Part shown: positions 1-61,309 of the stretch, piece by piece
Layout: the number at the start of each line of letters is the position of its first letter
Numbering within the stretch: position 1 is the first letter of the stretch
Origin: Actinoallomurus spadix
GTDB taxonomy: Bacteria; Actinomycetota; Actinomycetes; Streptosporangiales; Streptosporangiaceae
Assembly (NCBI RefSeq): GCF_024055725.1
Contig: NZ_JAMXMX010000003.1
Location: 248,001 to 312,000, forward strand
DNA length: 64,000 nt
Direction of reading: 5' to 3'
Notes under the pieces: generated by a model
Told to the model about the DNA's origin: nothing
The model's input: only the letters and a program-made list of their open reading frames with translations
The model's database searches: none
Position numbers and translations under genes: made by a program

Positions 1-3000
1 GAGCCGCAGGTCACGCCCGAGAGCGGGCGCGGCAGGCTGCGTACCCTTCCCGCGCAGGTCGACCTTCCCGCCCTGGAGCGCGAGGTCCTTGCCCGGTGGC
101 GGCAGGGCAAGGTCTTCCAGCGGTCCCTGGAACAGACCGAGACCGGCCCGCAGTGGGTCTTCTACGAAGGACCGCCGACCGCGAACGGCATGCCCGGCGT
201 GCACCACGTCGAGGCACGCGTGTTCAAGGACCTGTTCCCGCGCTTCAAGACGATGAAGGGCTACAGCGTCCGCCGCAAGGCCGGCTGGGACTGCCACGGC
301 CTGCCCGTCGAGGTGGCCGTGGAGAAAGAGCTCGGCATCTCCGGCAAGCGCGACATCGAGTCGTACGGCGTCGCGGAGTTCAACGCCCGCTGCCGCGAGT
401 CCGTGCTACGCCACGTCGACGCCTTCGAGGCGATGACCGAGCGCATGGGCTACTGGGTCGACCTCGCCCAGGCGTACCGCACGATGGACCCCGAATACGT
501 CGAGGCGGTCTGGTGGTCCCTCAAGACCGTCTTCGACAAGGGCCTGCTCGTCCGCGACCACCGCATCAGCCCGTACTGCCCGCGCTGTGGCACCCCGCTG
601 TCCGACCACGAGCTGGGCCAGCCGGGCGGGTACGAAACGGTCACCGACCCGTCGGTCACGGTGCGGTTCCCGATCACCGAGGGGCCGCTCGAGGGCGCCG
701 ACCTCCTCATCTGGACCACGACCCCCTGGACGCTGGTGTCCAACACCGCCGTCGCCGTGCACCCGGACGTGACGTACGTCGTCGCCGCCCGGTCCGGCGA
801 GCCGGGCCGTGTCGTGGTCGCCGAGCCGCTGTTCGCCCGCGTCCTCGGCGAGGGCTGGCACATCCTGTCCCGCCTCCAGGGCTCCGAGCTCGTCGGCACG
901 CCGTACCGCCGCCCGTTCGACCTCGTCGAGATCCCGAACGCGCACCGGGTGCTGGGCGCCGAGTTCGTCACCACCGAGGACGGCACCGGCCTCGTGCACA
1001 TGGCCCCCGCGTTCGGCGCCGACGACTTCGCGACCTGCCGGGCGGCCGGCATGCCCATCGTCAACCCCGTCAACCCGGACGGCCGGTTCGACCTGCCGGT
1101 GCCGCTCGTCGGCGGCACGTTCTTCAAGGACGCCGACGCGCGCCTCGTCGAGGACCTGCGCGAGCGCGGCCTGCTCTTCCGCGTCGAACGGTACGAGCAC
1201 AGCTACCCGCACTGCTGGCGGTGCCACACGCCGCTGCTGTACTACGCGCTGCCCGCCTGGTACATCAAGACCACCGCGATCAAGGACCGGCTCCTCGCGG
1301 AGAACGAGCGCACCAACTGGTTCCCGGCCACGATCAAGGAGGGCCGGTACGGCGAGTGGCTGCGGAACAACGTCGACTGGTCCCTGTCGCGCAGCCGCTA
1401 CTGGGGCACCCCGCTGCCGATCTGGCTGTGCGAGGACGACCACGCGGCCTGCGTCGGCTCCCTCAAGGAACTCGGTGAGCTCGCCGGGCAGGACCTCAGC
1501 GCGCTCGACCCGCACCGCCCGTACGTCGACGACGTCACCTTCGCCTGCCCCGAGTGCGGCAAGGAGGCCCGCCGCGTCCCGGACGTCATCGACGCCTGGT
1601 ACGACTCCGGGTCCATGCCGTTCGCCCAGTGGGGCGCGCCGCACCGGCGCAAGGAGATCTTCGAGGCGTCCTACCCGGCGCAGTACATCTGCGAGGCCAT
1701 CGACCAGACCCGCGGCTGGTTCTACTCGCTGATGGCCGTCGGCGCGCTCGTCTTCGACCGCTCGTCGTACGAGAACGTCGTCTGCCTCGGCCACATCCTC
1801 GCCGAGGACGGCCGGAAGATGAGCAAGCACCTCGGCAACGTCCTCGAGCCGATCCCGCTCATGGACAAGCACGGCGCCGACGCACTGCGCTGGTACATGG
1901 CCGCCGCCGGCCAGCCGTGGGCGGCCCGCCGGGTCGGGGACGCGGCACTCGAGGAGATCGTCCGCAAGATCCTCCTCACCTACTGGAACACCGCGTCGTT
2001 CTTCGCGCTGTACGCCAACGCCGCGGGCTGGACCCCGGACACGCCGGCCCCCGCGTACGCCGACCGGCCGCTGCTCGACCGGTGGGTGCTGGCCGAACTG
2101 CACCGTACGGTCCGCGAGGTGGACACCGCGCTGGAGGGCTTCGACACGGCCGCCGCCGGGCGTCGCCTCGCGGAGTTCATCGACGACCTGTCCAACTGGT
2201 ACGTCCGCCGCTCCCGGCGCCGGTTCTGGGAGGGACCGGAGCAGGACGGCACCGGAGAGAACGCCGCGGCCTTCGCCACCCTCTACGAATGCCTGGAGAC
2301 GCTGACGCGGCTCATGGCGCCGATCGCCCCGTTCGTCACCGACTACGTGTGGGACGTCCTGCGGCGTGACGGTGACGCGGACTCGGTGCACCTGGCCTCC
2401 TGGCCGGAGGTGGACGAGACGCTCCTCGACCCGGAGCTGTCCGCCCGGATGGCGCTCGTCCGGCGCCTCGTCGAGCTCGGCCGGTCCGCGCGGGCCGCCT
2501 CGGGCGTCCGCACCCGCCAGCCGCTCGGCCGCGCGCTCGTCGGCGCCGCGGGCTGGGCGTCGCTCCCCGACGAGCTGCGCGCCCAGATCGCCGACGAGCT
2601 CAACGTCCAGGGCTTCGACACGCTCGCCTCCATCGGCGGCGAACTCGTCGAGTACCAGGTCAAGCCGAACTTCCGCGAGCTGGGCAAGCGCTTCGCCAAG
2701 CAGACGCCGAAGGTCGCGGCGGCCGTCACCTCGGCCGACCCGGCCGGGCTCGTCCACGCCCTGCGCGACTCCGGCACGGCGACCGTCGACGCCGCCGAAG
2801 TCGGGAAGGTCGACCTGACGCCCGACGACGTCATCGTCACCGAACGGCCGCGCAGCGGCTGGGCGGTGGAGAGCGCCGCCGGGGAGACCGTCGCGCTGGA
2901 CCTGACCGTCACACCGGAGCTCCGCCGCGCCGGTCTCGCCCGCGAGGTCATCCGGCTCGTCCAGGACGCCCGTAAGAACAGCGGCCTGGACATCTCCGAC

Positions 3001-3183
3001 CGGATCGACCTGTGGTGGCGGACCAGCGACGCCGAGCTCGCCGACGCGCTGCGCGGGCACGGTGACGAAGTGGCCGGCGAGGTGCTCGCGGACACCTGGC
3101 AGGACGGCGAGCCCGACGCGGACCTGCCGGCCTTCCGGGACGAGGAACTGCGCCTGACCTTCTGGCTGCGCCGCTCCGCCTGA
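1..3183 (+). CDS. ileS: Isoleucyl-tRNA synthetase, type 2, 5' end cut by window edge
   Basis: This class I enzyme charges tRNA-Ile with isoleucine in the cytosol. The reading frame is open from base 1, so only a short N-terminal piece is missing; about 1,060 residues are visible, close to the family length. Landmarks are the PTANG loop, the signature motif at 196-207, the CP1 editing domain (IWTTTPWTLVSNTAV, about residues 238-252 of the visible part), the DAWYDSGS block and KMSKH at 1816-1830. The signature reads GVHH where class I enzymes have HxGH: the first His and the Gly are exchanged. Overall layout matches the IleRS2 (eukaryote-like) type, which is known to tolerate mupirocin, and altered GXHH motifs are described for hyper-resistant IleRS2 enzymes. 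A large hairpin follows the stop by 18 bases. Identity is certain; the resistance phenotype is inference. Confidence 0.96.
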   Translation, partial: EPQVTPESGRGRLRTLPAQVDLPALEREVLARWRQGKVFQRSLEQTETGPQWVFYEGPPTANGMPGVHHVEARVFKDLFPRFKTMKGYSVRRKAGWDCHGLPVEVAVEKELGISGKRDIESYGVAEFNARCRESVLRHVDAFEAMTERMGYWVDLAQAYRTMDPEYVEAVWWSLKTVFDKGLLVRDHRISPYCPRCGTPLSDHELGQPGGYETVTDPSVTVRFPITEGPLEGADLLIWTTTPWTLVSNTAVAVHPDVTYVVAARSGEPGRVVVAEPLFARVLGEGWHILSRLQGSELVGTPYRRPFDLVEIPNAHRVLGAEFVTTEDGTGLVHMAPAFGADDFATCRAAGMPIVNPVNPDGRFDLPVPLVGGTFFKDADARLVEDLRERGLLFRVERYEHSYPHCWRCHTPLLYYALPAWYIKTTAIKDRLLAENERTNWFPATIKEGRYGEWLRNNVDWSLSRSRYWGTPLPIWLCEDDHAACVGSLKELGELAGQDLSALDPHRPYVDDVTFACPECGKEARRVPDVIDAWYDSGSMPFAQWGAPHRRKEIFEASYPAQYICEAIDQTRGWFYSLMAVGALVFDRSSYENVVCLGHILAEDGRKMSKHLGNVLEPIPLMDKHGADALRWYMAAAGQPWAARRVGDAALEEIVRKILLTYWNTASFFALYANAAGWTPDTPAPAYADRPLLDRWVLAELHRTVREVDTALEGFDTAAAGRRLAEFIDDLSNWYVRRSRRRFWEGPEQDGTGENAAAFATLYECLETLTRLMAPIAPFVTDYVWDVLRRDGDADSVHLASWPEVDETLLDPELSARMALVRRLVELGRSARAASGVRTRQPLGRALVGAAGWASLPDELRAQIADELNVQGFDTLASIGGELVEYQVKPNFRELGKRFAKQTPKVAAAVTSADPAGLVHALRDSGTATVDAAEVGKVDLTPDDVIVTERPRSGWAVESAAGETVALDLTVTPELRRAGLAREVIRLVQDARKNSGLDISDRIDLWWRTSDAELADALRGHGDEVAGEVLADTWQDGEPDADLPAFRDEELRLTFWLRRSA

Positions 3184-3259: not shown

Positions 3260-3462
3260 CGTCCGCGCCACCGCCCCGTACCCGAGCCGACGCGTCCGCG
3301 GCCGCTCCCGACGGAGCCGAGCCGCGCCTGACAGGACCGAACGAACCCCGAGCCAGACGGAGCAAGCCGAGTTCAGGCCGGGCCACGCTGGACTGAGTCG
3401 AGCCGGCCGGATTGGACCGAGCGTCCCACGCCCAGTCGGCTCAGCGCCGTGGCCGTGGCCGA

Positions 3463-3500
3463 GGCCGGGGTCGGGGCCGGGGTCGGGGCCGGGGCCGGGA
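3463..3500. repeat. CGGGGY hexanucleotide tract
   Basis: About six imperfect tandem copies of CGGGGT/CGGGGC lie between ileS and the DUF1707 gene. In one frame this reads as alternating Gly-Arg, which artificially extends the next gene upstream. It looks like a simple slippage repeat. Confidence 0.65.
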
Positions 3501-3603
3501 CTGGAACGAACCCGGGCAGGGACGGAGCGGACCGGGTGGTCGGGGCAGGGCCGAAGGCGGGCCACGGCTGGTCACGGCCCGGTCGGTGCGGAATGATGCT
3601 CGC

Positions 3604-4359
3604 GTGGACCTTCCCGACAAGCCCGCGGCGGTTGACCCGGAGCTGATGCGCGCTTCCGACGCCGACCGTGACCGGATCGCCGACCAGCTGCGCGAGGCGC
3701 TCGCCGAAGGCCGGCTCACGGCGGAGGAGCACGCCGAACGCCTCGACACGGTGTACCAGGCCAAGACGTACGCCGAGCTCGCACCGGTCGTCGCGGATCT
3801 CCCGGGCGCCGGTGGTACGCCCGCGGCGCCGCGGATGGCGCGCGACGACCTGCCGGCCCCCTCGGCCGGCTCGCCGAACCTGGTGGCGATCCTGAGCGGC
3901 GCCGAGCGCAAGGGCCGCTGGCTGGTCGAGCCGCACACCAACGTCGTCACCGTGCTCGGCGGTGTAGAGCTCGATCTCCGCCAGGCCGTGCTGGCTCAGC
4001 GCGAGGTCACCATCAACATCACCGCAGTCCTCGGCGGTGTCTCGATCACCATTCCGCCGGGCGTGCGCGTGCTGAACTCCGTGACCTCCGTGATGGGTGG
4101 CTGCTCGCTGCCGTCCGATGACACGGTAGGTCCGGACGCGCCGGTGATCCGGCTGACGGGGATGACGTTGCTCGGCGGGATCGACGTCAAACGGCTGAGC
4201 GCGGATTCGACCACGGATACGGCGGCGGTGGCCGGCGGCCGCGATTTTCACGCGCGGCAGCGGAGCCTGCACCGCGAATTCCGGGACAAGCAGCGCGCGG
4301 TGCACCGAGAGTTCCGTGACCAGCAGCGGGAGCTGCGCCGGCAACGGCGCGCCCGCTGA
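3604..4359 (+). CDS. DUF1707 / LiaF-like C-terminal domain protein
   Basis: A 251-residue protein. Residues about 10-65 form a DUF1707 domain (MRASDADRDRIADQL, then GRLTAEEHAERLD), a short helical module common in actinobacteria. Residues about 95-175 match the beta-helical C-terminal domain of LiaF/DUF2154 envelope-stress proteins (ERKGRW, LGGVELDL, LGGVSITIPPG). There is no membrane segment, so it is probably cytosolic or peripheral. The basic C-terminus repeats HREFRD-QR twice, an amphipathic tail. I chose GTG 3604 because DUF1707 starts right after it; an in-frame ATG at 3412 only adds low-complexity Gly-Arg sequence. AATGAT occupies -12 to -7 relative to the GTG, so the mRNA may be leaderless. 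Function is unknown; a link to cell-wall stress is inferred from the LiaF-like fold. Confidence 0.78.
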   Translation: MDLPDKPAAVDPELMRASDADRDRIADQLREALAEGRLTAEEHAERLDTVYQAKTYAELAPVVADLPGAGGTPAAPRMARDDLPAPSAGSPNLVAILSGAERKGRWLVEPHTNVVTVLGGVELDLRQAVLAQREVTINITAVLGGVSITIPPGVRVLNSVTSVMGGCSLPSDDTVGPDAPVIRLTGMTLLGGIDVKRLSADSTTDTAAVAGGRDFHARQRSLHREFRDKQRAVHREFRDQQRELRRQRRAR

Positions 4360-4735: not shown

Positions 4736-6583
4736 TCAGTCGTCGTCGGGCTGGCAGACCAGGCAGGGGGTGCAGCCGCGCTCCCGTGCCGCCTCGCGCG
4801 ACAGGCTCTCCAGGTCGTCGGCGTCGTCGGCGATGTCCTCGATCAGCGCGCAGTCGGACCGGTGGTACCGCTTGGTCCCGCTCAGGATGCGCACCGTCGG
4901 GCCGCCGGCGGCCTCGACGCCGTCGGATTCGTCCGCGGACTCGGCCGTCGCCTTCTCCACGGCGTCGGCGGCCTCCGCCCTCTCCTCGACCTTCTCGGCC
5001 TTGTCGGTCTCCTCGTCCGTGGCGGCTTCCGGCGCCTGCTCCGCGGGCTCGGCGGGCGCCAACTCCGTGTGCTGGGCGGTCTGCGCCGGGGTGGAGTCGC
5101 CCGCAGGCTCCTCGCCGGTGGCCTCCTCGCCGGTGGCCTCCTCGCCGGTGGCCTCCTCGCCGGTGGCCTCCTCGGCGACGGTGGAGTCGTCGGCGGGCTC
5201 GTCGTGCTCATCGGACGCGGCGGCATCGGACTCGGACTCGTCCGCCTCCGGCGCGGACTCGGTCATCGCGCTGTCGTCCGTCTCCGTGGGCGGCGCCTCG
5301 GCGTCCGCCGGCTCTGCGTCAGGCGTGTCCGCGTCGGCCGGCGCGACGTCCGCCGGCTCGTCGTCCACCGGCTCGTCGTCCACCGGCTCCGCGTCTCGCG
5401 TCTCGGCGTCCGTGTGCTCGGTCTCGCGGGTGTCCGTGGTCTCGCGGTCCGCGGCCTCGGGCTCTGCGGTCTCCCCCTCGGGGGTTCCGGGCCGAGGCAC
5501 CTCACGTGTCACCGCGACCACGTCCGCAGCCTCGTCGGCGCCGTCGTGAGCGTCGTCCCGGGGCTCCGACGCCTCGGACTCGTCCGTGGATCGGGCCACG
5601 CCGGGCTCGTCGTCGCGGTGGGCGGCGTCCGCCGAGCCGGTGGTGCGGGTCTCGGCCGTCGCCGAGCCGGCCGCGGTCTCTTCGGCCGTGCCCGCCGCGG
5701 TCGTGTCCTCGGGGGTGGTCTCCGCGCGGTCCAGGGGCTCGAACAGGGACCGGCTGCGCCGCCTCGAACGCTCGGCGGGCGGTTCCTCCGTGACGTCGGC
5801 GGTGGTGCGCTCCGCGTCGGACGGTGGGGTGGTCGCGGACTCCGCGTCGCGGACGTCCTCGTCCACGGACCGGGGCGCCTCGGTCTCGTCGGTGGTGGCC
5901 CGGGCGGCCGTGAGGCCGTCGCGCTCTTCGGCGGACGGCGGCTCGGAGGCGGGCAGTGCTCGGGTGACCGGGATGTCGGTCCGGGTGACGTCCACCGGCT
6001 CGGCGGGCGGGCTCTGCGGCCTGGTGTCGGCGGCCGTGGCGATGTCCGCCGACCGCTGCTCGGCGGTGTCGGTGAGGGCGGCACGCGCCGCGAGCGCGGT
6101 GTCGGGCAGGCAGGCGGTGCAGGGCGTGAAGCCCTCCTCCCGCGCCTCGACGAAGGTCAGCTCCTCCTTGTCGCGGCCCGCGAGCTGACGGCAGGTCTCA
6201 AGGTGGTAGCGCTTGCGGCCGGGGACGACGTAGACGGTGGTCTCGTCGGGGACGTCGGCCGGGGAGGCGGACGTCGCCGGAATGATCGCCGCGTCGTCTC
6301 CCGCGCCGACCCGCGCCTTGGCCTTGACCGGCCTGGCGGTCGTCGTCCGGCCGGCGGACGCCTTGGCGTTCGCCGGGGCCGTGGTGGTGCCGAAGAGCTC
6401 CTTGCGCCGGAGGAACACCCCGACGGCGAGGAAGAGAGCGGAGACGATGCTGACCCCGATCGAGACGTAGATCAGCTTCAACCCGTCAAGACCGAGAATC
6501 TCATGCCCGGTGTTGCCCGTGACAATGCCCGTCACAAGAAGAGCGATCGCCAGGACGACGAGCACGCCACTCAGGATGATCAC
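4736..6583 (-). CDS. Membrane protein with two Cys-motif domains joined by a long acidic linker
   Basis: I do not recognise a named family for this 615-residue protein. Residues about 2-22 and 36-58 are two membrane helices with a short loop between them. Residues about 116-161 and 563-615 are two copies of one small domain: a beta strand ending in KRYH, then a Cys three residues later (C131; C578), and a closing PC-x-x-C-x-P motif (C155/C158; C607/C610). The Cys/His pattern suggests metal (zinc) binding. Between them lie about 400 residues rich in Glu, Asp, Ala, Thr and Pro, with GEEAT repeats, surely disordered. GTG 6583 follows a GGGAG ribosome site. The gene follows divIVA on the same strand but a strong hairpin separates them, so it is probably a separate unit. 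Confidence 0.75.
   Translation of the reverse strand: MIILSGVLVVLAIALLVTGIVTGNTGHEILGLDGLKLIYVSIGVSIVSALFLAVGVFLRRKELFGTTTAPANAKASAGRTTTARPVKAKARVGAGDDAAIIPATSASPADVPDETTVYVVPGRKRYHLETCRQLAGRDKEELTFVEAREEGFTPCTACLPDTALAARAALTDTAEQRSADIATAADTRPQSPPAEPVDVTRTDIPVTRALPASEPPSAEERDGLTAARATTDETEAPRSVDEDVRDAESATTPPSDAERTTADVTEEPPAERSRRRSRSLFEPLDRAETTPEDTTAAGTAEETAAGSATAETRTTGSADAAHRDDEPGVARSTDESEASEPRDDAHDGADEAADVVAVTREVPRPGTPEGETAEPEAADRETTDTRETEHTDAETRDAEPVDDEPVDDEPADVAPADADTPDAEPADAEAPPTETDDSAMTESAPEADESESDAAASDEHDEPADDSTVAEEATGEEATGEEATGEEATGEEPAGDSTPAQTAQHTELAPAEPAEQAPEAATDEETDKAEKVEERAEAADAVEKATAESADESDGVEAAGGPTVRILSGTKRYHRSDCALIEDIADDADDLESLSREAARERGCTPCLVCQPDDD
5108..5172 (-). repeat. 15-bp tandem repeat encoding GEEAT
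   Basis: Four near-perfect copies of a 15-bp unit (CTCCTCGCCGGTGGC on the plus strand) lie inside the acidic linker of the membrane protein. The period is a multiple of three, so copy number can change without breaking the frame. Confidence 0.85.
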
Positions 6584-6729: not shown

Positions 6730-7671
6730 TCAGCGCCGGTCGTGCGGGTTGTCGGCGGTGTGGAAGCTCCCGGTGGCGCCGTGCTGAGCGTGCTGCGGCT
6801 CGGCCTGCGGCGGCTGCTGCGGGAAGGGGTTCGCACCGGTGTTGCCCGGGCCGACGCTCGGCTGGCCGTTGCGCTGCATCTCCGGGTGCGGCGGCGGAGG
6901 GGCGACGGCGGGCTGTGCCGGCTGGGGACCCGTGTTGCCCGGTCCACCGAACGGCCCGGCGTGGCTGCCGGCCTCCAGCTCGCGCAGCTGACCCTCGAGA
7001 TAGGCCTTGAGGCGGCTGCGGTACTCGCGCTCGAAGAGGTTCAGGTCCTCGACCATGCGCTCGAGCTCCTCGCGCTGCTGGACGAGGGAGCCCATGGCCT
7101 GGCGGTGGCGCTCCTGCGCGTCCCGCTCGAGCGACTCGGCGCGGGCGCGGGCCTCGCTGACGATCTGCTCGGACTGCCGGCGGGCCTTCCCGAGGATCTC
7201 CTCGGCCTCACGCCGGGCACGCCCCAGCGTCTCGTCGGCCTCGCGGCGGGCGTCGGCGATCGCCTGGTCGGCGGTCTGCTGCGCCAGGGCGAGCACGCGG
7301 GCGGCCGTGTCCATGTTGTCCTCGCCGGGCGTGGCCATCGGCGGGGGCGGCGGGGGCGCCTGCGGGGCGGGAGGCATGCCGAGACCGCCCATCATCGGCT
7401 CCAGCTCCGGCTTCGGCTCCGGCGGTTTGGGCGGCTCGGGCAGATGCGCGATCTCCGGCTTGGGTTCGACGATCGGAGCGGCCATCGCCGGCACCTTGCC
7501 GCGGAGGCATTCGGCCAGCTTGGCGCGCAGCTCCTCGTTCTCCTGGATGAGCCGGTCGAGCTCGGCCTCGACCTCGTCGAGGAACGCGTCGACCTCCTCT
7601 TCGTCGTAGCCCGGCCGGAGCCGGGTTGTACTGAACTGCTTGTTCCGCACATCCGCGGGTGTCAGCGGCAT
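6730..7671 (-). CDS. divIVA: DivIVA/Wag31 polar growth scaffold
   Basis: A coiled-coil protein that marks negatively curved membrane at poles and septa and recruits the apical wall-synthesis machinery in actinobacteria. The 313-residue product opens with the DivIVA membrane-binding domain (TPADVRNKQFSTTRLRPGYD, then EEEVDAFLDEVE). A Pro-rich break near residues 75-115 is followed by a long coiled coil (about 120-225), then a Pro/Gly/Gln-rich disordered tail. ATG 7671 follows AAGGAG at good spacing. It ends the dcw gene run; a candidate own promoter lies in the end of the upstream yggT gene and a hairpin follows. Confidence 0.95.
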   Translation of the reverse strand: MPLTPADVRNKQFSTTRLRPGYDEEEVDAFLDEVEAELDRLIQENEELRAKLAECLRGKVPAMAAPIVEPKPEIAHLPEPPKPPEPKPELEPMMGGLGMPPAPQAPPPPPPMATPGEDNMDTAARVLALAQQTADQAIADARREADETLGRARREAEEILGKARRQSEQIVSEARARAESLERDAQERHRQAMGSLVQQREELERMVEDLNLFEREYRSRLKAYLEGQLRELEAGSHAGPFGGPGNTGPQPAQPAVAPPPPHPEMQRNGQPSVGPGNTGANPFPQQPPQAEPQHAQHGATGSFHTADNPHDRR

Positions 7672-7710: not shown

Positions 7711-7738
7711 ACGGTACCCGATCAGAGCGGCTGGACAA
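7711..7738 (-). promoter_or_regulatory. Candidate divIVA promoter
   Basis: On the minus strand TTGTCC (7738-7733), a 16-base spacer and TACCGT (7716-7711) fit the actinomycete housekeeping pattern. The start would fall near 7704, giving a leader of about 33 bases before divIVA. The -35 box lies within the last codons of yggT. Confidence 0.45.
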
Positions 7739-8009
7739 TGATGATCAAGAACCAGACCACGAAGAAGAGAACCGTGAAGCTCAGGTCGAGTGCAACGTTA
7801 CCCAGCCGAACGGACGGTATGAAACGGCGTAGGAGCTTGAGAGGTGGGTCGGTGACGGTGTATGTGGCCTCCGCCAGCACCAGTACCACTCCTCTGGGCC
7901 TCCACGACCGGGCGAACGCCTGAAGCGTCTCGAAGACCATCCTGCCGATGAGGAAGAGCAGGAAGAGGTACAGCGGGATGCTCAGGTAATTTCCAAGGTT
8001 CACGAACAC
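7722..8009 (-). CDS. yggT: YggT-family membrane protein (YlmG)
   Basis: A 95-residue protein with two hydrophobic segments (about residues 10-28 and 72-93) joined by an amphipathic loop ending RRFIP. YggT/YlmG proteins sit in the membrane and sit beside sepF in Gram-positive dcw clusters; a role in division or membrane-protein assembly is suggested for the family, not proven. Its start lies 15 bases after the sepF stop. Two GTG codons (8009 and 8003) are possible starts. Confidence 0.9.
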   Translation of the reverse strand: MFVNLGNYLSIPLYLFLLFLIGRMVFETLQAFARSWRPRGVVLVLAEATYTVTDPPLKLLRRFIPSVRLGNVALDLSFTVLFFVVWFLIIIVQPL

Positions 8010-8647: not shown

Positions 8648-9346
8648 TTACCTGACGATTGCCCGTCGTCCTCCGAGCAACGCCGTACCGACTCGGACGT
8701 GTGTCGCACCACACGCGATCGCTTCTTCCAAATCGCCGCTCATCCCGGCAGAAATCATGCTTGCTCCCGGGTGAACGGCCCGTAGCGCGGCGGCGACCTC
8801 CGCCAGCCGGCCGAACGCCGCCGCCGGGTCGCCGCCCAGCGGCGCCACGGCCATGACGCCCCCGAGGGTGAGGCCGGGAGCGGAGGCGATCGCGTCGGCC
8901 AGCGCAGGCACGCCGCCAGGCCGGACGCCGCCCCGCCCCTCGGCGTCGTCGAGCGCCACCTGGACGAGACAGCGGAGCGACCGGTTCGTCCCCGTCGCCG
9001 CGCGGGACAGCGCCGTCACGAGGCGCTCGCGATCGACGGAGTGGACCACGTCGGAGTAGGAGGCCACCGAGCGGGCCTTGTTCGTCTGCAACTGCCCGAC
9101 GAAGTGCCACGTGAGCGGCAGGTCACGGCACTCGGCGGCCTTGGCCGACGCCTCCTGGTCGCGGTTCTCCGCGACGTCGGTGACGCCCAGCCCGGCCAGC
9201 AGGCGCACGTCCGAGGCGGGGAAGGTCTTCGTCACCGCGATCAGGGTGACCTCGGCGGCGGAGCGGCCGACCGCGGCGCACGCCTTGGCGACACGTTCAC
9301 GGACGGCCGCGAGGTTGGCGGCCAGGTGCTCTTCGCGGTCGGTCAT
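8648..9346 (-). CDS. yggS: YggS-family PLP homeostasis protein (YlmE)
   Basis: A PLP-binding protein of the alanine-racemase-fold III family that buffers pyridoxal phosphate; it has no known catalytic activity. The product is about 232 residues, the usual size. The PLP lysine is in [12 protein letters not shown] near residue 41, with [12 protein letters not shown] and the phosphate-binding region near the C-terminus ([15 protein letters not shown]). The common GENR-x-QE motif reads AENRDQEA. It starts 30 bases after ftsZ; GTG 9349 and ATG 9346 are alternatives. pgeF/ylmD, usually between ftsZ and yggS, is absent. Confidence 0.92.
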
Positions 9347-9376
9347 CACTGGTCGCGCATCACTGGCTGGGCATCG

Positions 9377-10801
9377 TTACTTCAGGAAGTCCGGGACGTC
9401 CAGGTCGTCGTCCTCGTCGAAGACGACGGGGCGGCGGCGGACCGGGTCGGTGCCGAGGCGCGCCGCGGTCGGCTCGTTGGCCGGCCGCGGCACCTTAGGG
9501 CGGACCGCGGACTCGCCGGAGACCGGACGCGGCGGCGTGGGCCCGCCGTCGGCCGTGCTCTCCGCCGGCTTGTCGGCCACCGGCTCGGGCTTGGTGTCCG
9601 CCGGCTTGGGCGGCTCGGCCTTCGGCTGGTCCTGCTTCGCCTCGACCGGCTTGCCGTCCACCCCCGGCAGCGGGCCCGGCTCCCGGTGCGGGGCGGGTAC
9701 GGGTGCGGGTACGGCGGAGACCCTCGGCGGCGCGGGTGGTGGCGCGGCGGGCGGGGTCACCGGGCGGGGCGGCGTCACGGGCGGGGTCGCCACGGCCGGC
9801 CGGCTCGGGGACAGGCGCTTCGGCTCCGCCTGGGGGGCCGGAGCGTGTTGCGGCCGGATCTCGTCGAAGCCCGCGGCGATCACCGTCACACGGACCTCGT
9901 CGCCCAGCGCGTCGTCGATGACGGCGCCGAAGATGATGTTCGCGTCGGGCGCGGCCGCGTTGGACACGAGCTGCGCCGCCTCGTTGATCTCGAAGAGGCC
10001 GAGATCGGACCCGCCGGAGATCGACAGCAGGACGCCGTGGGCGCCGTCGATGCTGGCCTCCAGCAGCGGGCTGGAGATCGCCATCTCGGCGGCGGCGACC
10101 GATCGGTCGTCCCCGCGTGCGGACCCGATGCCCATGAGCGCGGATCCGGCCCCGGACATCACCGACTTGACGTCGGCGAAGTCGAGGTTGATCAGACCCG
10201 GTGTGGTGATCAGGTCGGTGATGCCCTGAACACCGGAGAGGAGCACCTGGTCGGCCGCCTTGAAGGCGTCCAGGACGCTCACCTGGCGATCGGAGATCGA
10301 CAGCAGCCGGTCGTTCGGGATGACGATGAGCGTGTCGACCTCGTCGCGGAGCGTCTCGATGCCGGCCTCGGCCTGCATGGCACGCCGCTTGCCCTCGAAG
10401 CTGAAGGGGCGGGTGACCACGCCGATCGTCAGTGCGCCCAGCGACCGGGCGATGTTGGCGACCACCGGAGCGCCTCCGGTGCCGGTGCCACCACCCTCTC
10501 CGGCGGTCACGAAGACCATGTCGGCCCCCTTGAGGACCTCCTCGATCTCCTCACGGTGGTCCTCGGCCGCCTTGCGCCCGACGTCGGGGTTGGCGCCCGC
10601 GCCGAGACCACGGGTGAGTTCACGGCCGACGTCGAGCTTGACGTCGGCGTCGCTCATCAGCAGCGCTTGGGCGTCCGTGTTGATCGCGATGAACTCGACA
10701 CCCTTGAGCCCCTCTTCGATCATCCGGTTGACGGCGTTGACGCCGCCGCCGCCGATGCCGACGACCTTGATGACCGCCAGGTAATTCTGCGGTGCTGCCA
10801 C
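9377..10801 (-). CDS. ftsZ: Cell division GTPase FtsZ
   Basis: The tubulin homologue that forms the Z-ring. The 474-residue product has the GTP-binding loop GGGTGTGG (about 103-110), the T7 synergy loop NLDFAD (205-210), and the core up to about residue 317. A long Pro/Ala-rich linker of some 140 residues follows, then the C-terminal peptide [11 protein letters not shown] that binds SepF and FtsW. The linker makes it longer than most FtsZ (about 390-410), though streptosporangial and related homologues are also long. GTG 10801 has GGAAGGGG upstream. The 390-base gap before it holds a promoter, a hairpin and a palindrome, so ftsZ is probably controlled separately from the wall genes. Confidence 0.98.
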
Positions 10802-34765: not shown

Positions 34766-34885
34766 GATCGGCTCGCTTCGGAGCTCTGCGCTCTCACCGC
34801 GGCCCCTGCCCCGCCCCTGGCGCGCGAAACGCGTCCGTGCCGAGGATCCTCTGGCGCGGCACGCCGGTGCTCACGCGCCGTCGAA

Positions 34886-34914
34886 CCGGCCGGCGCCTTC
34901 CCGGTACCGGCCGG
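34886..34914 (-). terminator. Candidate terminator after nusB
   Basis: Two CCGGCCGG blocks, each self-complementary, flank a 13-base loop, beginning 12 bases past the nusB stop on the minus strand. They can pair as an 8-bp stem. No T-run. Confidence 0.4.
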
Positions 34915-34926
34915 CCCGTGTGGCGT

Positions 34927-35343
34927 CTAGAGCGCCAGGGAGGGTTTCAGCTCCAGCAGCCGCGACAGCAGGCCGTTGACGAACCGGGGCGACTCGTCGG
35001 TGGACAGGTCGGTGGCCAGGGCGACCGCCTCGCTGACGGCGACGCCGTCGGGAACGTCCTCGCTCCACAGCAGTTCGAACGCGCCGAGCCGCAGGATGTT
35101 GCGGTCGACGATGGGCATCCGGTCGAGGGTCCAGCCGACGGCGTACGTCGCGATCAGCTCGTCGATGCGCTCGCGGCGGGTGGCCACGCCCTCGACGAGC
35201 CGATCGACGAAGTCCTGCTCGGCGAGCCGGTGCTCCGCCTGCCGGGTGCGCCGGTCGAGGACCTCGACCGGCGGCTCACCGCGGACCTCGGCCTCGTAGA
35301 GGATTTCGAGGGCGCGTCTGCGCGCCTTGCTCCGTGCGGCCAC
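34927..35343 (-). CDS. nusB: Transcription antitermination factor NusB
   Basis: A 138-residue helical RNA-binding protein that with NusE binds boxA in rRNA transcripts. It shows RRRALEILYEAEVRG at the N-terminus and the family block DRNILRLGAFELLW, then VALATDLSTDESPRFVNGLL. GTG 35343 lies three bases after efp. It ends the aro-efp-nusB operon; bldD/pyrR, often next, are not here. Confidence 0.96.
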   Translation of the reverse strand: MAARSKARRRALEILYEAEVRGEPPVEVLDRRTRQAEHRLAEQDFVDRLVEGVATRRERIDELIATYAVGWTLDRMPIVDRNILRLGAFELLWSEDVPDGVAVSEAVALATDLSTDESPRFVNGLLSRLLELKPSLAL

Positions 35344-35346
35344 GGA

Positions 35347-35904
35347 TCAGGCACGACCCAGGTAGTCGCCCGAGCGGGTGTCGACCTTGATCTTCTCGCC
35401 GGTAGTGATGAACAGCGGGACCTGGATCGTCGCGCCCGTCTCGACCGTCGCGGGCTTGGTGCCGCCGGTGGAGCGGTCGCCCTGCAGGCCGGGCTCGGTC
35501 TCGGTCACCTCGAGCACCACGGCGGCGGGCAGCTCGATGTAGAGCGGGGTGCCCTCGTTGAAGGCGATCACGGCGTTCTGCTCCGGGAGGAGGTAGTCCG
35601 CCGCCTCGCCGACCGTCGCCGCCGGGATGTGCGGCTGGTCGTAGGTCTCGGTGTCCATGAAGACGAAGTCCTCGCCCTCGCGGTAGAGGTACTGCATCTC
35701 CCGCTTGTCGACGTTCGCCACGTCGACCTTGGTGCCGGCGTTGAAGGTCTTGTCGACGACCTTGCCGGACAGGACGTTCTTGAGCTTGGTGCGGACGAAC
35801 GCGCCGCCCTTGCCAGGCTTGACGTGCTGGAACTCCAGGACGGTCCACAGCTGGCCGTCGAGGTTCAGCGTCATGCCGTTCTTGAGGTCGTTCGTCGTCG
35901 CCAC
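35347..35904 (-). CDS. efp: Elongation factor P
   Basis: Relieves ribosomes stalled at proline runs. The 185-residue three-domain protein has the KOW-like domain I with the tip loop [10 protein letters not shown]; the Lys there is the residue modified in other bacteria. The C-terminal domain ends in [19 protein letters not shown]. Wall proteins in this window (FtsI, FtsL, FtsZ linker, MurX tails) are proline-rich, so EF-P should matter for their translation. GTG start, standard family position. Confidence 0.97.
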
Positions 35905-35940
35905 TGTGTGTCGTTCTCCCGCTTCGGCGGTCTGCCGCGT

Positions 35941-37008
35941 CTAGATGACGAGCAGGTCCTTTGTCGTCTTGGTGAGCAGCTCCGGACCGTCCGCACGGAC
36001 GACGAGCGTGTCCTCGATGCGGACCCCGCCGCGACCGGCGACGTAGACGCCGGGCTCGACGGTGATGGGAACTCGATCCATCAGTTTACCGGTCTTGTCA
36101 TACCCCATGAGCGGTGCCTCGTGGATCTCCAGGCCGACGCCGTGCCCGAGGCCGTGCGGGAAGTCCTCGCCGTGCCCGGCCTCCTGGATCACTCCGCGGG
36201 AGGCGGCGTCGACCTCCTTGGTCACCGCCTCCGGGCGCGCCGCCGTGAGGCCCGCCGCCTGGGCCGCGGCGACGAGTTCGTAGATCTCGCGTTCCCACGC
36301 GCCGGCCTCACCGACCGCGACGGTCCGGGTCATGTCGGCGTGGTAGCCGTCCCGCAGGGCGCCGAAGTCCATGGTGACCAGGTCGCCGCGCTCGATCGCG
36401 CGCCCGGACGGGACGTGGTGCGGGATCGCACCGTTGGGGCCGCTCGCCACGATGGTGGCGAACGCCGGCCGGTCCGCGCCGAGGTCGACCATCGCCCGGT
36501 CCAGGGCGATGGCGATCTCGCGTTCGGTGACGCCGGGCCGGAGCGCGGGCAGCACCGCGTCGAAGGCCCGGTCGGTGATGGCGCAGGCCTCCGCGAGGAG
36601 GACGATCTCCTCCTCGTCCTTGACCATGCGCAGTTCCTCCACGGCACGGCCGAGGGGGACGAGCTCCGGCGCGTCCGGCTCCGCGGCGAGCGCGTCGCGG
36701 GCCTCGACGGTGACGTCGTGCGCCTCGAACGCCAGCCGGCCCCGTGCCCGCCCGGCCAGGACGCCCGCGGCGGCCCGGTCGATCACGCACTCCAGGTCCG
36801 GGCACACGCGCGCGGCCGTGCCGGCGTACCGGCCGTCGGTCGCCAGCACGGCGCTCCCGTCGGCGCGCACGAGCAGCGCGGCGTTGGAACTGGCCAGCCC
36901 GGTCAGGTAGCGCACGTTGACCAGGCGGGTGATGAGGGCCGCCTCGGCGCCGCGGGCGGCGACGAGCGTGGCCAGCCGCGCACGGCGGGCCTCGTGGATC
37001 TCCGGCAT
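35941..37008 (-). CDS. Xaa-Pro aminopeptidase (M24 family)
   Basis: A pita-bread metallopeptidase of about 355 residues that removes N-terminal residues ahead of proline. Metal ligands are visible: Asp in VTMDFGALRDGYHADMTRT, His in HGLGHGVGLEIHEAP and Glu in ITVEPGVY and GVRIEDT. It is the usual neighbour of efp in actinobacteria. ATG 37008 or GTG 37017 could start it; neither has a strong ribosome site. Confidence 0.92.
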   Translation of the reverse strand: MPEIHEARRARLATLVAARGAEAALITRLVNVRYLTGLASSNAALLVRADGSAVLATDGRYAGTAARVCPDLECVIDRAAAGVLAGRARGRLAFEAHDVTVEARDALAAEPDAPELVPLGRAVEELRMVKDEEEIVLLAEACAITDRAFDAVLPALRPGVTEREIAIALDRAMVDLGADRPAFATIVASGPNGAIPHHVPSGRAIERGDLVTMDFGALRDGYHADMTRTVAVGEAGAWEREIYELVAAAQAAGLTAARPEAVTKEVDAASRGVIQEAGHGEDFPHGLGHGVGLEIHEAPLMGYDKTGKLMDRVPITVEPGVYVAGRGGVRIEDTLVVRADGPELLTKTTKDLLVI

Positions 37009-37032
37009 GCCCCGCACTCTACGCGTGCGGTC

Positions 37033-38079
37033 TCAGACGGACGCGGCCAGCTCCCGTACCTGCTCGATCAGCTTGACGCGGGACTCGTGGTCGGCGGCCA
37101 TGGGCGCGACGTTGAGCGTCGTGACGCCGGACTCCTTCAGCGCCGCCAGCCGGTCGCGGACGAAGCCCTCCGAGCCGATCAGGGAGGTCTTCTGCAGCAG
37201 TTCGTACGGCACCTTGGCCGCGGCCTCGTCCTTCTTCCCGGCGAGGTAGAGGTCCTGGATCTCCTCGGCCTCCTTCTCGTACCCGTAGCGGCGGGCGAGG
37301 TCGTTGTAGAAGTTGCGGCCCTTGGCGCCCATGCCGCCGATGTACAGCGCGGCCATCGGCCGGCCGAGGTCGAGCAGGCCCTCGACGTCGTCGCCGATCG
37401 CCAGGAACGCCTGCGCGACGATGTCCAGCTCACCGAGCGAGGGGTCGCGTTTGGCCTTGCCACGGGCGAGCGCGTCGCCCCAGACGTCACCGGCCTTCTC
37501 CGGAACGTAGAAGATCGGCTCCCAGCCCTCGGCCAGTTCGGCGGTCATCTCGACGTTCTTCGGTCCGAGAGACGCGATGAAGATCGGGATGCGCTCGCGG
37601 ACCGGGTGGTTGATCAGCTTGAGCGGCTTGCCGAGGCCGGTGCCCTCCTCGGCGGGCAGCGGCAGCTTGTAGTACCTGCCGTCGTAGACGAGGCGTTCGC
37701 GGCGCCACACCATGCGGCAGATCTCGATGATCTCCCTGGTCCGCCCGATCGGCGCGGTGTACGGGACGCCGTGCCAGCCCTCGATGACCTGCGGGCCGGA
37801 CGCGCCGAGGCCGAGCACGAACCGCCCGCCGGAGACGTAGTCGAGGCCGGCCGCCGTCATCGCGGTGAGCGTCGGGGTCCGCGAGTAGAGCTGGAGGATG
37901 CCCGAGGCGATCTGCAGCCGCTCGGTCCGCGCCGCGATGAAGCCCATCTGGCTGACCGCGTCGAAGCTGTACGCCTCCGGCACGAACACGATGTCGAGGC
38001 CGGCCTTCTCATAGTCCGCCAGCTCGTCGACGGTCTCCCTGAAACCGCCCGCGTAGTTGAGGGACATCCCGATGCGCAT
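37033..38079 (-). CDS. F420-dependent LLM-class oxidoreductase
   Basis: A 348-residue luciferase-like TIM-barrel enzyme expected to use coenzyme F420. Hallmarks are the MRIGMSLNYAGG start, VFVPEAYSFDAVSQMGFIAART and the RFVLGLGASGPQVIEGWHG loop. Substrate unknown. It sits between aroQ and the Xaa-Pro peptidase gene, whereas those two are normally adjacent, so it looks inserted into the aro-efp operon. Codon use is like its neighbours. Confidence 0.92.
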   Translation of the reverse strand: MRIGMSLNYAGGFRETVDELADYEKAGLDIVFVPEAYSFDAVSQMGFIAARTERLQIASGILQLYSRTPTLTAMTAAGLDYVSGGRFVLGLGASGPQVIEGWHGVPYTAPIGRTREIIEICRMVWRRERLVYDGRYYKLPLPAEEGTGLGKPLKLINHPVRERIPIFIASLGPKNVEMTAELAEGWEPIFYVPEKAGDVWGDALARGKAKRDPSLGELDIVAQAFLAIGDDVEGLLDLGRPMAALYIGGMGAKGRNFYNDLARRYGYEKEAEEIQDLYLAGKKDEAAAKVPYELLQKTSLIGSEGFVRDRLAALKESGVTTLNVAPMAADHESRVKLIEQVRELAASV

Positions 38080-38168
38080 GTCGCCGCTCCTGATCCTGAC
38101 CTGAACCGCCGAGTAACCGAATGACGTTCAGTCTTACCGTACCCGGGGCGGTCCCGGCATCCCCGGTG

Positions 38169-57832: not shown

Positions 57833-59239
57833 TCATCGTGCGTCTCCGCCGAGGTCGGGGCGGCGCTCGGGCGCGTCGGGGACGACGTCGCGCTCACCCG
57901 GGGCGATGACGCCCGCGCCGGTGTCGCGCGGGGTGCGCTGGACGGCGTTCAGGACGTGGTAGCCCAGCAGCACGGCGACGGTGCCGAGAGCGATGCCCTG
58001 CAGCGGGAAGTCCCCGGTGATCTTCAGCGTGACGTCGCCGATGGCCAGGATGAGGCCGGCCGCCACGGGGACGAGGTTGACCGGATCGCCGAAGTCGACG
58101 CGGTTCTCGATCCAGATCTTGGCGCCGAGCAGGCCGATCATGCCGTAGAGCACGACGGTGATGCCGCCGAGGACGCCGCCGGGGGTCGCGGCCACCAGCG
58201 CGCCGAACTTCGGGCACAGGCCGACGAGGATCGCGACGATGGCGGCGACGTAGTAGGCGGCGGTCGAGTAGATCCGCGTGGCGGCCATGACGCCGATGTT
58301 CTCGGCGTACGTCGTGGTCGGGGCGCCGCCGACCGCGGTGGCCAGGACGGTCGTGGCGCCGTCGGCGGCGATGGCCCGGCCGAGGTACGGGTCGAGGTCC
58401 GCGCCGGTCATCGCGGCGACGGCCTTGACGTGGCCGGTGTTCTCCGCGATCAGCGCGATCACCGGGGGCAGCGCCACGAGGATGGCCGAGGTCTTGAAGT
58501 CCGGTGCGTGCAGGTGCGGCAGACCGAACCAGTCCGCGCCCTTCACGCCGCTCAGGTTCACGCGGAAGTGGGAGGTGACCGTGCCGGTGCCGTCGGGGGC
58601 GGTGATCCGGCCGGCCGTCCTGTCGAGGATCCACGACAGCAGGAAGCCGAAGACCAGGCCGATGAGGACCGCGATCCGCGACCAGAAGCCGCGCAGGACC
58701 ACGGCGCACAGGACGACGACGGCCAGGGTGGCGAGCGCGACCCACTGGTCCTGCGGCCAGTAGACGTCGGCGACGACCGGCGCGAGGTTGAAGCCGATCA
58801 GCATGACGACCGCGCCGGTGACCACGGGCGGGAAGATCCGGTGAATGACGCGGGCGCCCAGGACGTGGATGACCACGCCGACGACGGCGAGGACCGCGCC
58901 GGCGACGAGGATCGCGCCGGTCACCTGGGCGGTGCCGCCGCCGGCCGCGCGGATGGACGCGACGGCGCCGACGAAGGACGCGCTGCTCCCGAGGTAACTG
59001 GGCACCTTCCCGGCGGAGACGAGCAGGAAGATGATGGTCGCGATCCCGGACATCAGGATCGCGAGGTTCGGGTCGAGCCCCATCACGACCGGGAACACGA
59101 ACGTCGCGCCGAACATCGCGACGACGTGCTGGGCGCCGATGCCGGCGGTGCGGCCCCAGGACAGGCGCTCGTCCGGCCCGACGACCTCGCCGGGCGCGGG
59201 GGTGCGCCCGTCGCCGTGCAGTTTCCAGCCGATCGCCAT
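57833..59239 (-). CDS. NCS2-family nucleobase permease (uracil/xanthine type)
   Basis: A 468-residue proton symporter with about fourteen helices. QHVVAMFGATFVFPVVMGL, the GGAPTTTYAENIGVMAAT motif and GDPVNLVPVAAGLILAIGD are hallmarks of UraA/PyrP-type uracil carriers. ATG 59239 has GGGAGG close ahead; GTG 59260 would add seven residues. It is downstream of pucR, on the same strand. Confidence 0.92.
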   Translation of the reverse strand: MAIGWKLHGDGRTPAPGEVVGPDERLSWGRTAGIGAQHVVAMFGATFVFPVVMGLDPNLAILMSGIATIIFLLVSAGKVPSYLGSSASFVGAVASIRAAGGGTAQVTGAILVAGAVLAVVGVVIHVLGARVIHRIFPPVVTGAVVMLIGFNLAPVVADVYWPQDQWVALATLAVVVLCAVVLRGFWSRIAVLIGLVFGFLLSWILDRTAGRITAPDGTGTVTSHFRVNLSGVKGADWFGLPHLHAPDFKTSAILVALPPVIALIAENTGHVKAVAAMTGADLDPYLGRAIAADGATTVLATAVGGAPTTTYAENIGVMAATRIYSTAAYYVAAIVAILVGLCPKFGALVAATPGGVLGGITVVLYGMIGLLGAKIWIENRVDFGDPVNLVPVAAGLILAIGDVTLKITGDFPLQGIALGTVAVLLGYHVLNAVQRTPRDTGAGVIAPGERDVVPDAPERRPDLGGDAR

Positions 59240-59309
59240 CTGTCCTCCCGGGGGGGTCACCGCGGGCCCGGCGCACCGGCCCGCCCGCGCTGTGGAGCCG
59301 AATGCCCGC

Positions 59310-59327
59310 CCGCCCGCGAGCGGGCGG
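59310..59327 (-). terminator. Candidate hairpin after pucR
   Basis: CCGCCCG pairs with CGGGCGG around a CGAG loop, beginning 9 bases past the pucR stop on the minus strand. No T-run. It lies in the 96-base gap before the permease gene. Confidence 0.45.
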
Positions 59328-59335
59328 TCAGGGCC

Positions 59336-61084
59336 TCAGATCCCGCGCATGCGCAGGACGTGCAGCGCGAGCGTCAGGTTGAGGCGCAGATGGGCGTCGT
59401 CGGTGAACGGTCCCAGCAGGCGCTCCAGCTTACCGATGCGGTAACGGAGCGTGTTGTAGTGGAAGTGCAGGCGGCGGGCGGTCTCGGCGACGTTGAGGTT
59501 CGTCTCCAGCAGCACCTGCAGGGTGCGCCGCAGGTCGACGGCCTCGGAGTCCTGGTCGCCGGCGAGCTCACCGAGGGTCTCCTGGACGAAGGAGTGCAGC
59601 TCGGCGGTGTCCTCGACCAGGCTGAGCAGCCGGAAGACGCCGAGTTCGTCGAAGTGCACGACGGCCCCGTCGCCGTTCATCTGACGCCCGACGCGCACCG
59701 CCCGGACCGCCTGGTCGTACGCGGACGGCAGGTCGCCGGGCTGCTGCGCCACGCGGCTCACGCCGGTGGAGAAGGTCCGGTCCTGGTCGGCGAAGACGGC
59801 GGCGGCGTCCTTGGCCAGGGCCGGCGCGTCGCACGCGTCGGCGGCGACGACCGCGACGACCCCGCCCGAGAAGCCGGCCACCGCGCCCTTGCGGTCCCGG
59901 CGCCGGACCGCCGAGGTCCACGCGGTCACCAGGCGGTCCTGGAGCACGCGTTCCTCGGTGCCGCCGCGCGCCGGTCCCTGGTCGGGTTCGGCGACGACCA
60001 CGGTGGCGGGACGGCCGAGGTCCCAGCCGAAGCTCGCGCTGTGCGCGATCACGCGCTCGTCCGCTCCGGACCGGCCGGTGAGGACGTCGCGCAGGAAGTA
60101 GGCGCGGTACTTGCTCTCGACCGCCGACACGGCGTGCTGCCTGGTGATGACGAGGGCGACGACGGTGGCGACGCGTTCGAGGACGCCGGTGTCGGCCGCC
60201 GAGACGCCGAGCACCGCCATCCGCCCGTAGGTGAACCCGCCCGCGACGACGGGCACCACGAGGTGCCCGTCCGGCGCGGTTCCCGGGCCGTCGCCGGTGT
60301 CCGGGCCGTCGAGTCCGGGCGCGGGCTCGCGCGGCGCGGCGCCGGCGGGCCAGGAGGCGGGGACGCCGGCCGGTGGAACGTGATCGAGGACGCCCGGTGC
60401 CGGCGCCTCCTCCTCGGCGGCCGGCGGGAGTCCCGCGAGCGCGCCCCGAAGCCGGGTCAGGAGCGCCTCGTCGCCGGAGGCCGCGAGTTGCCGGCCGTCG
60501 CCGTCGAGGACGGTGACGGCGGCGCCCAGGAGCGTGGCGACCTCGTCCGTCACCTCTTGCAGGCCGCCGCCGCACAGGACGATCTGCACGAGGGCGCGGT
60601 GCACCTCCTCGCCGCGGGCCAGCGCGGCGGCCCGCCGGTCGAGGATCCGGGCGAGGACCTGGTTGAGGATGTCGTCGAACCCGGCGTCCTCGGGCAGCCG
60701 GATCAGGGGGAGGCCGAGCCGGTCGGCCTGTTCGAGCATCTCGTCCGGCAGGCGTTCGAGGTAGCGGCCGGGTTTGACGGCGAGGGCCGTCAGGTTGCAG
60801 GCGTTCAGGTCGGCGACGAGGCGGCCGAGGGTACCGGAGGTATGGCGCAGCGGATAGCCGGTGGTCAGCAGGAGTTCGTTCGGCTTGACCCAGCCGAAGA
60901 CGTCGGGGACCTCCATGACGTTGAGGCGCTCCACGACGCGGTCGAGGCCGCCCGCCCCGGCGACGAGCCGGGCGCCCGCCAGAGTCGGCAGGCCCAGAAC
61001 CTCTTCAACGGACAGTCCGTACGCCGGGATACCGGAGCCGGCGGGACGCAGAGCCGGAGGACGAGATCCGCACGAAGACGACAT
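59336..61084 (-). CDS. PucR-family transcriptional regulator
   Basis: A 582-residue regulator. Residues about 25-150 form the PucR N-terminal domain (GLSVEEVLGLPTLAGARLVAGAGGLDRVVERLNVMEVPD), then a central GGDEF-like region (about 330-480), and the C-terminal PucR helix-turn-helix (LLETNLNVAETARRLHFHYNTLRYRIGKLERLLG). The family controls purine uptake and catabolism. ATG 61084 is the likely start, but no strong ribosome site confirms it. The permease gene downstream and the divergent DUF2877 gene are probable targets. Confidence 0.9.
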   Translation of the reverse strand: MSSSCGSRPPALRPAGSGIPAYGLSVEEVLGLPTLAGARLVAGAGGLDRVVERLNVMEVPDVFGWVKPNELLLTTGYPLRHTSGTLGRLVADLNACNLTALAVKPGRYLERLPDEMLEQADRLGLPLIRLPEDAGFDDILNQVLARILDRRAAALARGEEVHRALVQIVLCGGGLQEVTDEVATLLGAAVTVLDGDGRQLAASGDEALLTRLRGALAGLPPAAEEEAPAPGVLDHVPPAGVPASWPAGAAPREPAPGLDGPDTGDGPGTAPDGHLVVPVVAGGFTYGRMAVLGVSAADTGVLERVATVVALVITRQHAVSAVESKYRAYFLRDVLTGRSGADERVIAHSASFGWDLGRPATVVVAEPDQGPARGGTEERVLQDRLVTAWTSAVRRRDRKGAVAGFSGGVVAVVAADACDAPALAKDAAAVFADQDRTFSTGVSRVAQQPGDLPSAYDQAVRAVRVGRQMNGDGAVVHFDELGVFRLLSLVEDTAELHSFVQETLGELAGDQDSEAVDLRRTLQVLLETNLNVAETARRLHFHYNTLRYRIGKLERLLGPFTDDAHLRLNLTLALHVLRMRGI

Positions 61085-61309
61085 AGCCGCCCAATCTCCC
61101 GAAGTTGACCCCCGAGTAACCATCACACGATGACGAGAAATACGAACGCTGGCAACCATTCTTGTCAGGATTCTCCATACGGCCATGGCCCGGACGGGTT
61201 TACGTTCACGACCGTGACCGCCCCCGGCCGGGGCCGCGACCGGGCCTGAGCGCCCCCGTCCGGCGGGCCGGACGGGGCGATCCGACCCATCGCGCCGCGG
61301 GAGGTCCGG

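Follow-up and report, generated by a model that had tools for sequence, protein, structure and literature searches.

Class I synthetases carry an HXGH signature at the position where the isoleucyl-tRNA synthetase (IleRS) considered here reads GVHH. An exchanged form of the signature, G/AXHH, has been described in type 2 IleRS (IleRS2), together with its mechanism and the mupirocin hyper-resistance that goes with it (Brkic et al., 2023; PMC10485003). In the available text of that study the motif occurs in 86 of 379 sampled IleRS, every one of them type 2, and lifts the Ki for mupirocin up to a thousandfold. As explained there, the active site of IleRS2 is shifted, so that the third-position histidine can replace the first histidine without hitting the adenine, and the same third-position histidine clashes with mupirocin, which brings the Ki into the millimolar range (PMC10485003). 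For the IleRS of Streptomyces griseus a Ki of 10 mM is given in the accessible part of PMC4861432, and according to PMC10485003, which refers to the S. griseus work, an IleRS2 gene may be the sole one. PMC10485003 also divides IleRS2 into two clades and has the motif arising at least twice.

The ileS gene of the window and its type

The window, that is, the whole stretch of 64,000 nucleotides that was analyzed, begins within an ileS gene of the IleRS2 type (1..3183, + strand; codons 4-1063 and the stop). The ATG precedes the window by 9 bases, which leaves the first three codons outside it; the full protein has 1063 aa, and the reading frame runs unbroken from base 1 to its stop at 3183. At 196..207 (+), the codons GGC GTG CAC CAC encode GVHH as residues 66-69 when numbered in the window frame; this is the class I HIGH signature in swapped form, and the sequence around it reads EGPPTANGMPGVHHVEAR. 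An earlier sequence-only reading had described an exchange of the first histidine and the glycine at these bases, which the codons and the open frame show to be exact, and it was also right in calling the KMSK intact, as the KMSKS-loop signature reads KMSKH (1816..1830, +) with both lysines kept. The fifth residue of this signature, histidine and not serine, is shared by 49/49 genes of the window type examined in this order, counting that of the window. In the editing domain, all 7/7 residues of WTTTPWT (712..732, +) are invariant in a 29-row alignment, as are His333 and Asp342 of the editing-site segment HMAPAFGADD (997..1026, +). An AlphaFold2 model built from 29 aligned sequences (mean pLDDT 91.3) has a helix starting at residue 67 (residues 67-85), so that GVHH sits at the helix tip, as expected.

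The protein matches the NCBIfam ileS model TIGR00392 with 929.7 bits (cut-off 621.4) over profile positions 3-850 of 861. In a sequence search of the PDB, the P. megaterium IleRS2 chains scored best (928-940 bits), the closest solved structure being 8c8w, the GVHH mutant of that enzyme (939.7 bits), followed by 1ile of T. thermophilus. Lower scores were obtained by the P. megaterium IleRS1 chains (340-349 bits; 326-349 together with 1ffy) and by 8wnf (244). A fold search with the model placed 8c8v and 8c8w on top (TM 0.82), and its first four matches were all P. megaterium IleRS2 entries. The PDB matches and a 99-row tree both group the protein with IleRS2 and not with IleRS1, which bears out the IleRS2 frame proposed earlier.

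Distribution of the swapped motif

The order to which the window genome belongs was sampled with 121 genomes (the window's own included, completeness at least 90, mostly one family), and in 120 of these a single ileS match reaches E <= 1e-100, with 119 of the matches over the cut-off. The motif was read in 50 of these genomes, again including the window's; they comprise the 30 best-scoring loci and 20 picked to include the lowest scorers, and are not a random draw. GVHH was found in 48 of them, GAHH in one and GVHT in one, the last in a different enzyme (genome G108, discussed below), which gives GXHH in 49/50. In one of the 48 GVHH genomes (G109) a frameshift in the gene leaves the motif on an open piece of its own. 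GVHH is the usual form in this order and no oddity of the window genome.

In a wider genome scan, the named loci are the best 80 of at least 593. Among these best 80, G-x-H-H is found in 12, namely in Actinomadura, Planobispora, two Streptomyces (GAHH), Mumia and seven MAGs assigned to Actinomycetota (two), Myxococcales, Bacilli, Gemmatimonadetes, Ignavibacteriaceae and Woesebacteria, while HYGH is found in 24, including Mycolicibacterium, Nocardia, Gordonia, Tsukamurella, Demequina, Promicromonospora, Actinotignum, Nocardioides and Prauserella; three of the remaining loci lack the region and the others have different HXG-type or archaeal-type motifs. In the 99-row tree, calculated with FastTree only and with composition warnings for 58/99 rows, the window protein falls inside a GXHH subclade of 19 rows (support 96), which is sister to a canonical subclade of 27 rows, and a minor clade of 11 rows lies outside both. 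The nearest named rows are Actinomadura (78% identity) and Planobispora, with Streptomyces (GAHH) close by. The tree agrees with the two clades and at least two motif origins that PMC10485003 reports in the text available.

The gene is almost certainly a housekeeping GXHH-type IleRS2, presumably with active-site chemistry and mupirocin resistance as in its relatives. It would serve as the isoleucyl-tRNA synthetase of an actinomycete near Actinomadura and Planobispora; to judge from the relatives, the third-position histidine would do the job of the first and clash with mupirocin, and the Ki for mupirocin would be expected to be millimolar. The motif was presumably inherited with the lineage and not recently acquired. 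A possible alternative, which we consider rather unlikely, is that the motif, although real and old, was not selected by mupirocin, being neutral or reflecting chemistry that was selected otherwise, with resistance as a by-product. The presence of the motif throughout the read order genomes and in several phyla is in line with this, as is its retention in a second clade in which the other signature has changed too; against it, exchanging the motif changes the Ki by ~175- to 820-fold in the tested enzymes (ratios computed from Table 1 of PMC10485003, in the part available). This alternative concerns the origin of the motif and not its present function.

Copy number and neighborhood of ileS

A search for a second ileS, as the sequence-only reading had proposed, returned none: the gene is the only one over the TIGR00392 cut-off in the whole assembly (8.02 Mb, 71 contigs, completeness 98.3), where a further copy could still lie in a gap. 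The other strong matches to the profile are two valyl-tRNA synthetases (ValRS) and one LeuRS, the latter recognized by its own motifs, and the weakest lie on contigs C69 and C22. The two ValRS (L002, 1393-3921, and L003, 694-3279, both on the - strand; contigs C55 and C28) differ in type: one matches the alternative form (alt_ValS 1460 bits, cut-off 900), the other the ordinary bacterial form (1164 bits, cut-off 704).

Upstream of ileS are a 110-aa ORF, lspA and a pseudouridine synthase gene. Downstream follow a DUF1707 SHOCT-like/LiaF-like protein (3412..4359, +; the same gene as L187:13412-14359), DivIVA (6730..7671, -; L187:16730-17671), a YGGT protein (7722-8009) and an alanine-racemase-N protein (8648-9349), both between DivIVA and FtsZ, and FtsZ itself (9377..10801, -), beyond which lie FtsQ-type, Mur ligase, MurG-type, FtsW/RodA-type and MraW genes. 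This neighborhood is a housekeeping one. Between the DUF1707 gene and DivIVA, the window also encodes an acidic and repeat-rich protein of 615 aa (4736-6583, -) with a sub-threshold DUF6233 match. When 23 of the 54 other ORFs chosen from the window were scanned with Pfam, they gave cell-division, housekeeping or general families or no clear match; ten of them, located from 28 to 61 kb, belong to primary-metabolism or general families, with two lacking a match, and no evident biosynthetic cluster was seen among the 23. No tRNA genes were found in the window. Two ORFs of more than 1000 aa (34837-38124 and 57956-61108, both +) have no Pfam match at 1e-8 and a weak coding signal (GC3-GC2 of 0.26 and 0.25), and may be spurious frames.

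That the gene is instead a paralog serving self-protection or secondary metabolism, and that a different, canonical IleRS does the housekeeping, is very improbable. Such pairs do exist, as two genomes of one genus, G274 (L146/L159) and G351 (L147/L160), each have two IleRS2 genes, one GVHH and one HYGH (2/246 genomes of the phylum sample), and duplicated aaRS genes for self-resistance are reviewed in the accessible text of PMC9437257. A third genome of this genus, G343 (L148), has, at E <= 1e-60, the HYGH gene alone, and G133 and G241 were not counted as pairs because their two matches cover complementary parts of the profile and represent split genes. Against a paralog stand the single match over the cut-off in the window genome, the one match per genome in 120/121 genomes of the order, the lspA and cell-division locus, and the scanned ORFs, which show no evident cluster. 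The chance of a sequencing or assembly error at 196-207, which had been named as a possible refutation, is negligible and the idea not credible, because restoring HXGH (GGC-GTG-CAC to CAC-GTG-GGC) takes four base substitutions in an open frame and because 49/50 read order genomes, the window's included, carry GXHH, as do the named relatives L017-L021.

The reading of the gene as a housekeeping enzyme with an altered motif is thus supported by the sole match over the cut-off and by the cell-division locus; the motif is usual in the order, and that a housekeeping IleRS2 may have it is already stated in PMC10485003, in whose available text the link between the motif exchange and hyper-mupirocin-resistant IleRS2 is likewise found. 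The finding is correct and well reasoned but already explained in print. With the window, a resistance mechanism known from the literature gains one more ordinary case, which also shows how firmly it is fixed in this order.

Relatives with both signatures rewritten

The minor clade of the tree is represented in the order of G286 (Actinomycetota), a genome assembled as a single contig. In this order, 57/61 genomes have an ileS match at E <= 1e-80, exactly one in 56 of them, whereas the two neighboring matches in the 57th (G418) are parts of a single ileS gene. The motifs were read in 52/61 genomes (49 plus G286, G228 and G316; L150-L154, L169-L176, L213-L261), the other nine having either no match (four) or partial or split genes (five). 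In these 52 genomes KMSKS is eroded to [PAE]MH[KRGS]: lysine is found at the first position in 0/52, with Pro, Ala or Glu instead, and the fourth position has Lys in 24 genomes, Arg in 5 and Gly/Ser in the remaining 23, and hence is not basic in 23/52. The fourth residue of HIGH is Thr in 15/52 (GVHT, AVHT, AIHT), always together with Gly/Ser at KMSKS position 4. Across the clade, the lysines of KMSKS and the histidines of HIGH disappear step by step. The minor-clade enzyme is the only IleRS detected in the G286 order and looks like a housekeeping enzyme.

Among the papers listed for the IleRS MHKS and KMSKS literature, as far as titles and the beginnings of abstracts go and with the supplements of PMC10485003 excluded, no published account of this erosion was found, nor of the combination of a rewritten KMSKS with a swapped HIGH in a seemingly essential enzyme; the HIGH swap is covered by PMC10485003. 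Precedents for a missing second KMSKS lysine, in the accessible portions of the sources, are human TyrRS, in which potassium stands in its place, and the KMSAS/KMSST forms of TrpRS. Outside the minor clade, both motifs are altered in the IleRS of a Bacilli MAG (L024 4001-6988; GIHH and KMHKS), and single changes (HXGT, EMHKS) occur in archaeal alignment rows.

Sixty rows (52 minor-clade genomes, G108, G288, four f48 genomes, L039 and L087) were compared for a residue that might stand in for the lost lysine. Where KMSKS position 4 is Gly/Ser, 24/25 rows have Lys/Arg directly after TAN, in the loop that precedes HIGH, as against 0/35 of the other rows; the one deviating row, L232, carries its Lys four residues further upstream (GPKTAN), and four MHYS rows have neither the position-4 lysine nor Lys/Arg after TAN. 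On a quick IQ-TREE tree without the motif columns, which gave long-branch warnings, there are 3 changes for the lysine loss and 2 for the Lys/Arg gain, and the tree also suggests that one subclade regained Lys/Arg at position 4. Only 3 independent pairs are available (one changing the same way, two without difference) and the association is not significant, so that it lacks statistical support because of the very few evolutionary events.

The GVHT enzyme of G108, a genome of the window's own family, is a 1032-aa IleRS with GVHT for HIGH and EMHGS for KMSKS (L126 689-3787, +/L168; L188), and is the single, divergent ileS match of its genome (628 bits, just over the cut-off). It adjoins a RiPP-type cluster with a RiPP radical SAM C-methyltransferase (611 bits, cut-off 282), two SagB-like dehydrogenases (both under the cut-off), a MATE exporter, an S9 peptidase, a methyltransferase and TPR proteins, and has a BTAD regulator on the opposite side. 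A window-type ileS was not found in the G108 assembly, nor was lspA, for which the same model was successful in four other genomes tested (the window's included), and the ftsZ contig breaks off about 2.2 kb beyond ftsZ; the usual ileS-lspA locus of G108 is probably in an assembly gap. The enzyme was considered as the only IleRS of G108, an idea that was dropped in view of the missing lspA and the early end of the ftsZ contig. As the ileS-lspA region is absent from the assembly, the gene is most likely a second copy, which by analogy may have a self-resistance or biosynthetic role like SbzA, the precedent given for a biosynthetic role in the available text of PMC9437257. Relatives of the enzyme were not found in the viral contigs scanned with six peptide patterns.

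The observed changes in these enzymes can be joined into one reading, which we put forward tentatively and regard as somewhat less probable than not. The minor clade would be the sole active housekeeping IleRS of a whole order although both its signatures are rewritten, from GVHH to GVHT/AVHT and from KMSKS to [PAE]MH[KR]S and to EMHGS, which has no basic residue at position 1 or 4; the Lys/Arg after TAN would contact the phosphate in place of the missing KMSKS lysine; and G108 would have borrowed such an enzyme into its RiPP-type cluster, probably for self-resistance. The relatives matter more than the window: if this reading is true, which signature residues are truly needed becomes directly testable.

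Compared with known systems, the window enzyme shares with the G/AXHH IleRS2 of S. griseus and Deinococcus radiodurans the swapped HIGH residues, with Gly at position 1 and His at position 3, the retained KMSK and type 2, while it has GVHH as opposed to the GAHH of the two Streptomyces rows compared (S. griseus itself not among them), and KMSKH as in its close relatives. The canonical HXGH IleRS2 of Mycolicibacterium, Nocardia, Gordonia and Actinotignum are of the same type and of similar length, but have HYGH, are about 39-40% identical to the window protein (best segment) and form the separate subclade of 27 rows. The minor-clade enzymes (GVHH to GVHT/AVHT, MH[KRGSY]S) are likewise full-length IleRS2 with a swapped HIGH, but are 39-43% identical to the window protein (four genomes), with KMSKS rewritten and GPPTANG mostly changed to GP[IV]TAN[NK]. 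MupA and MupB are also mupirocin-resistant IleRS families, but the window protein scores 783.3 and 758.1 bits against their 1900-bit cut-offs, far too low for either. The window enzyme belongs to the published GXHH subclade of IleRS2, and nothing in it changes the kind.
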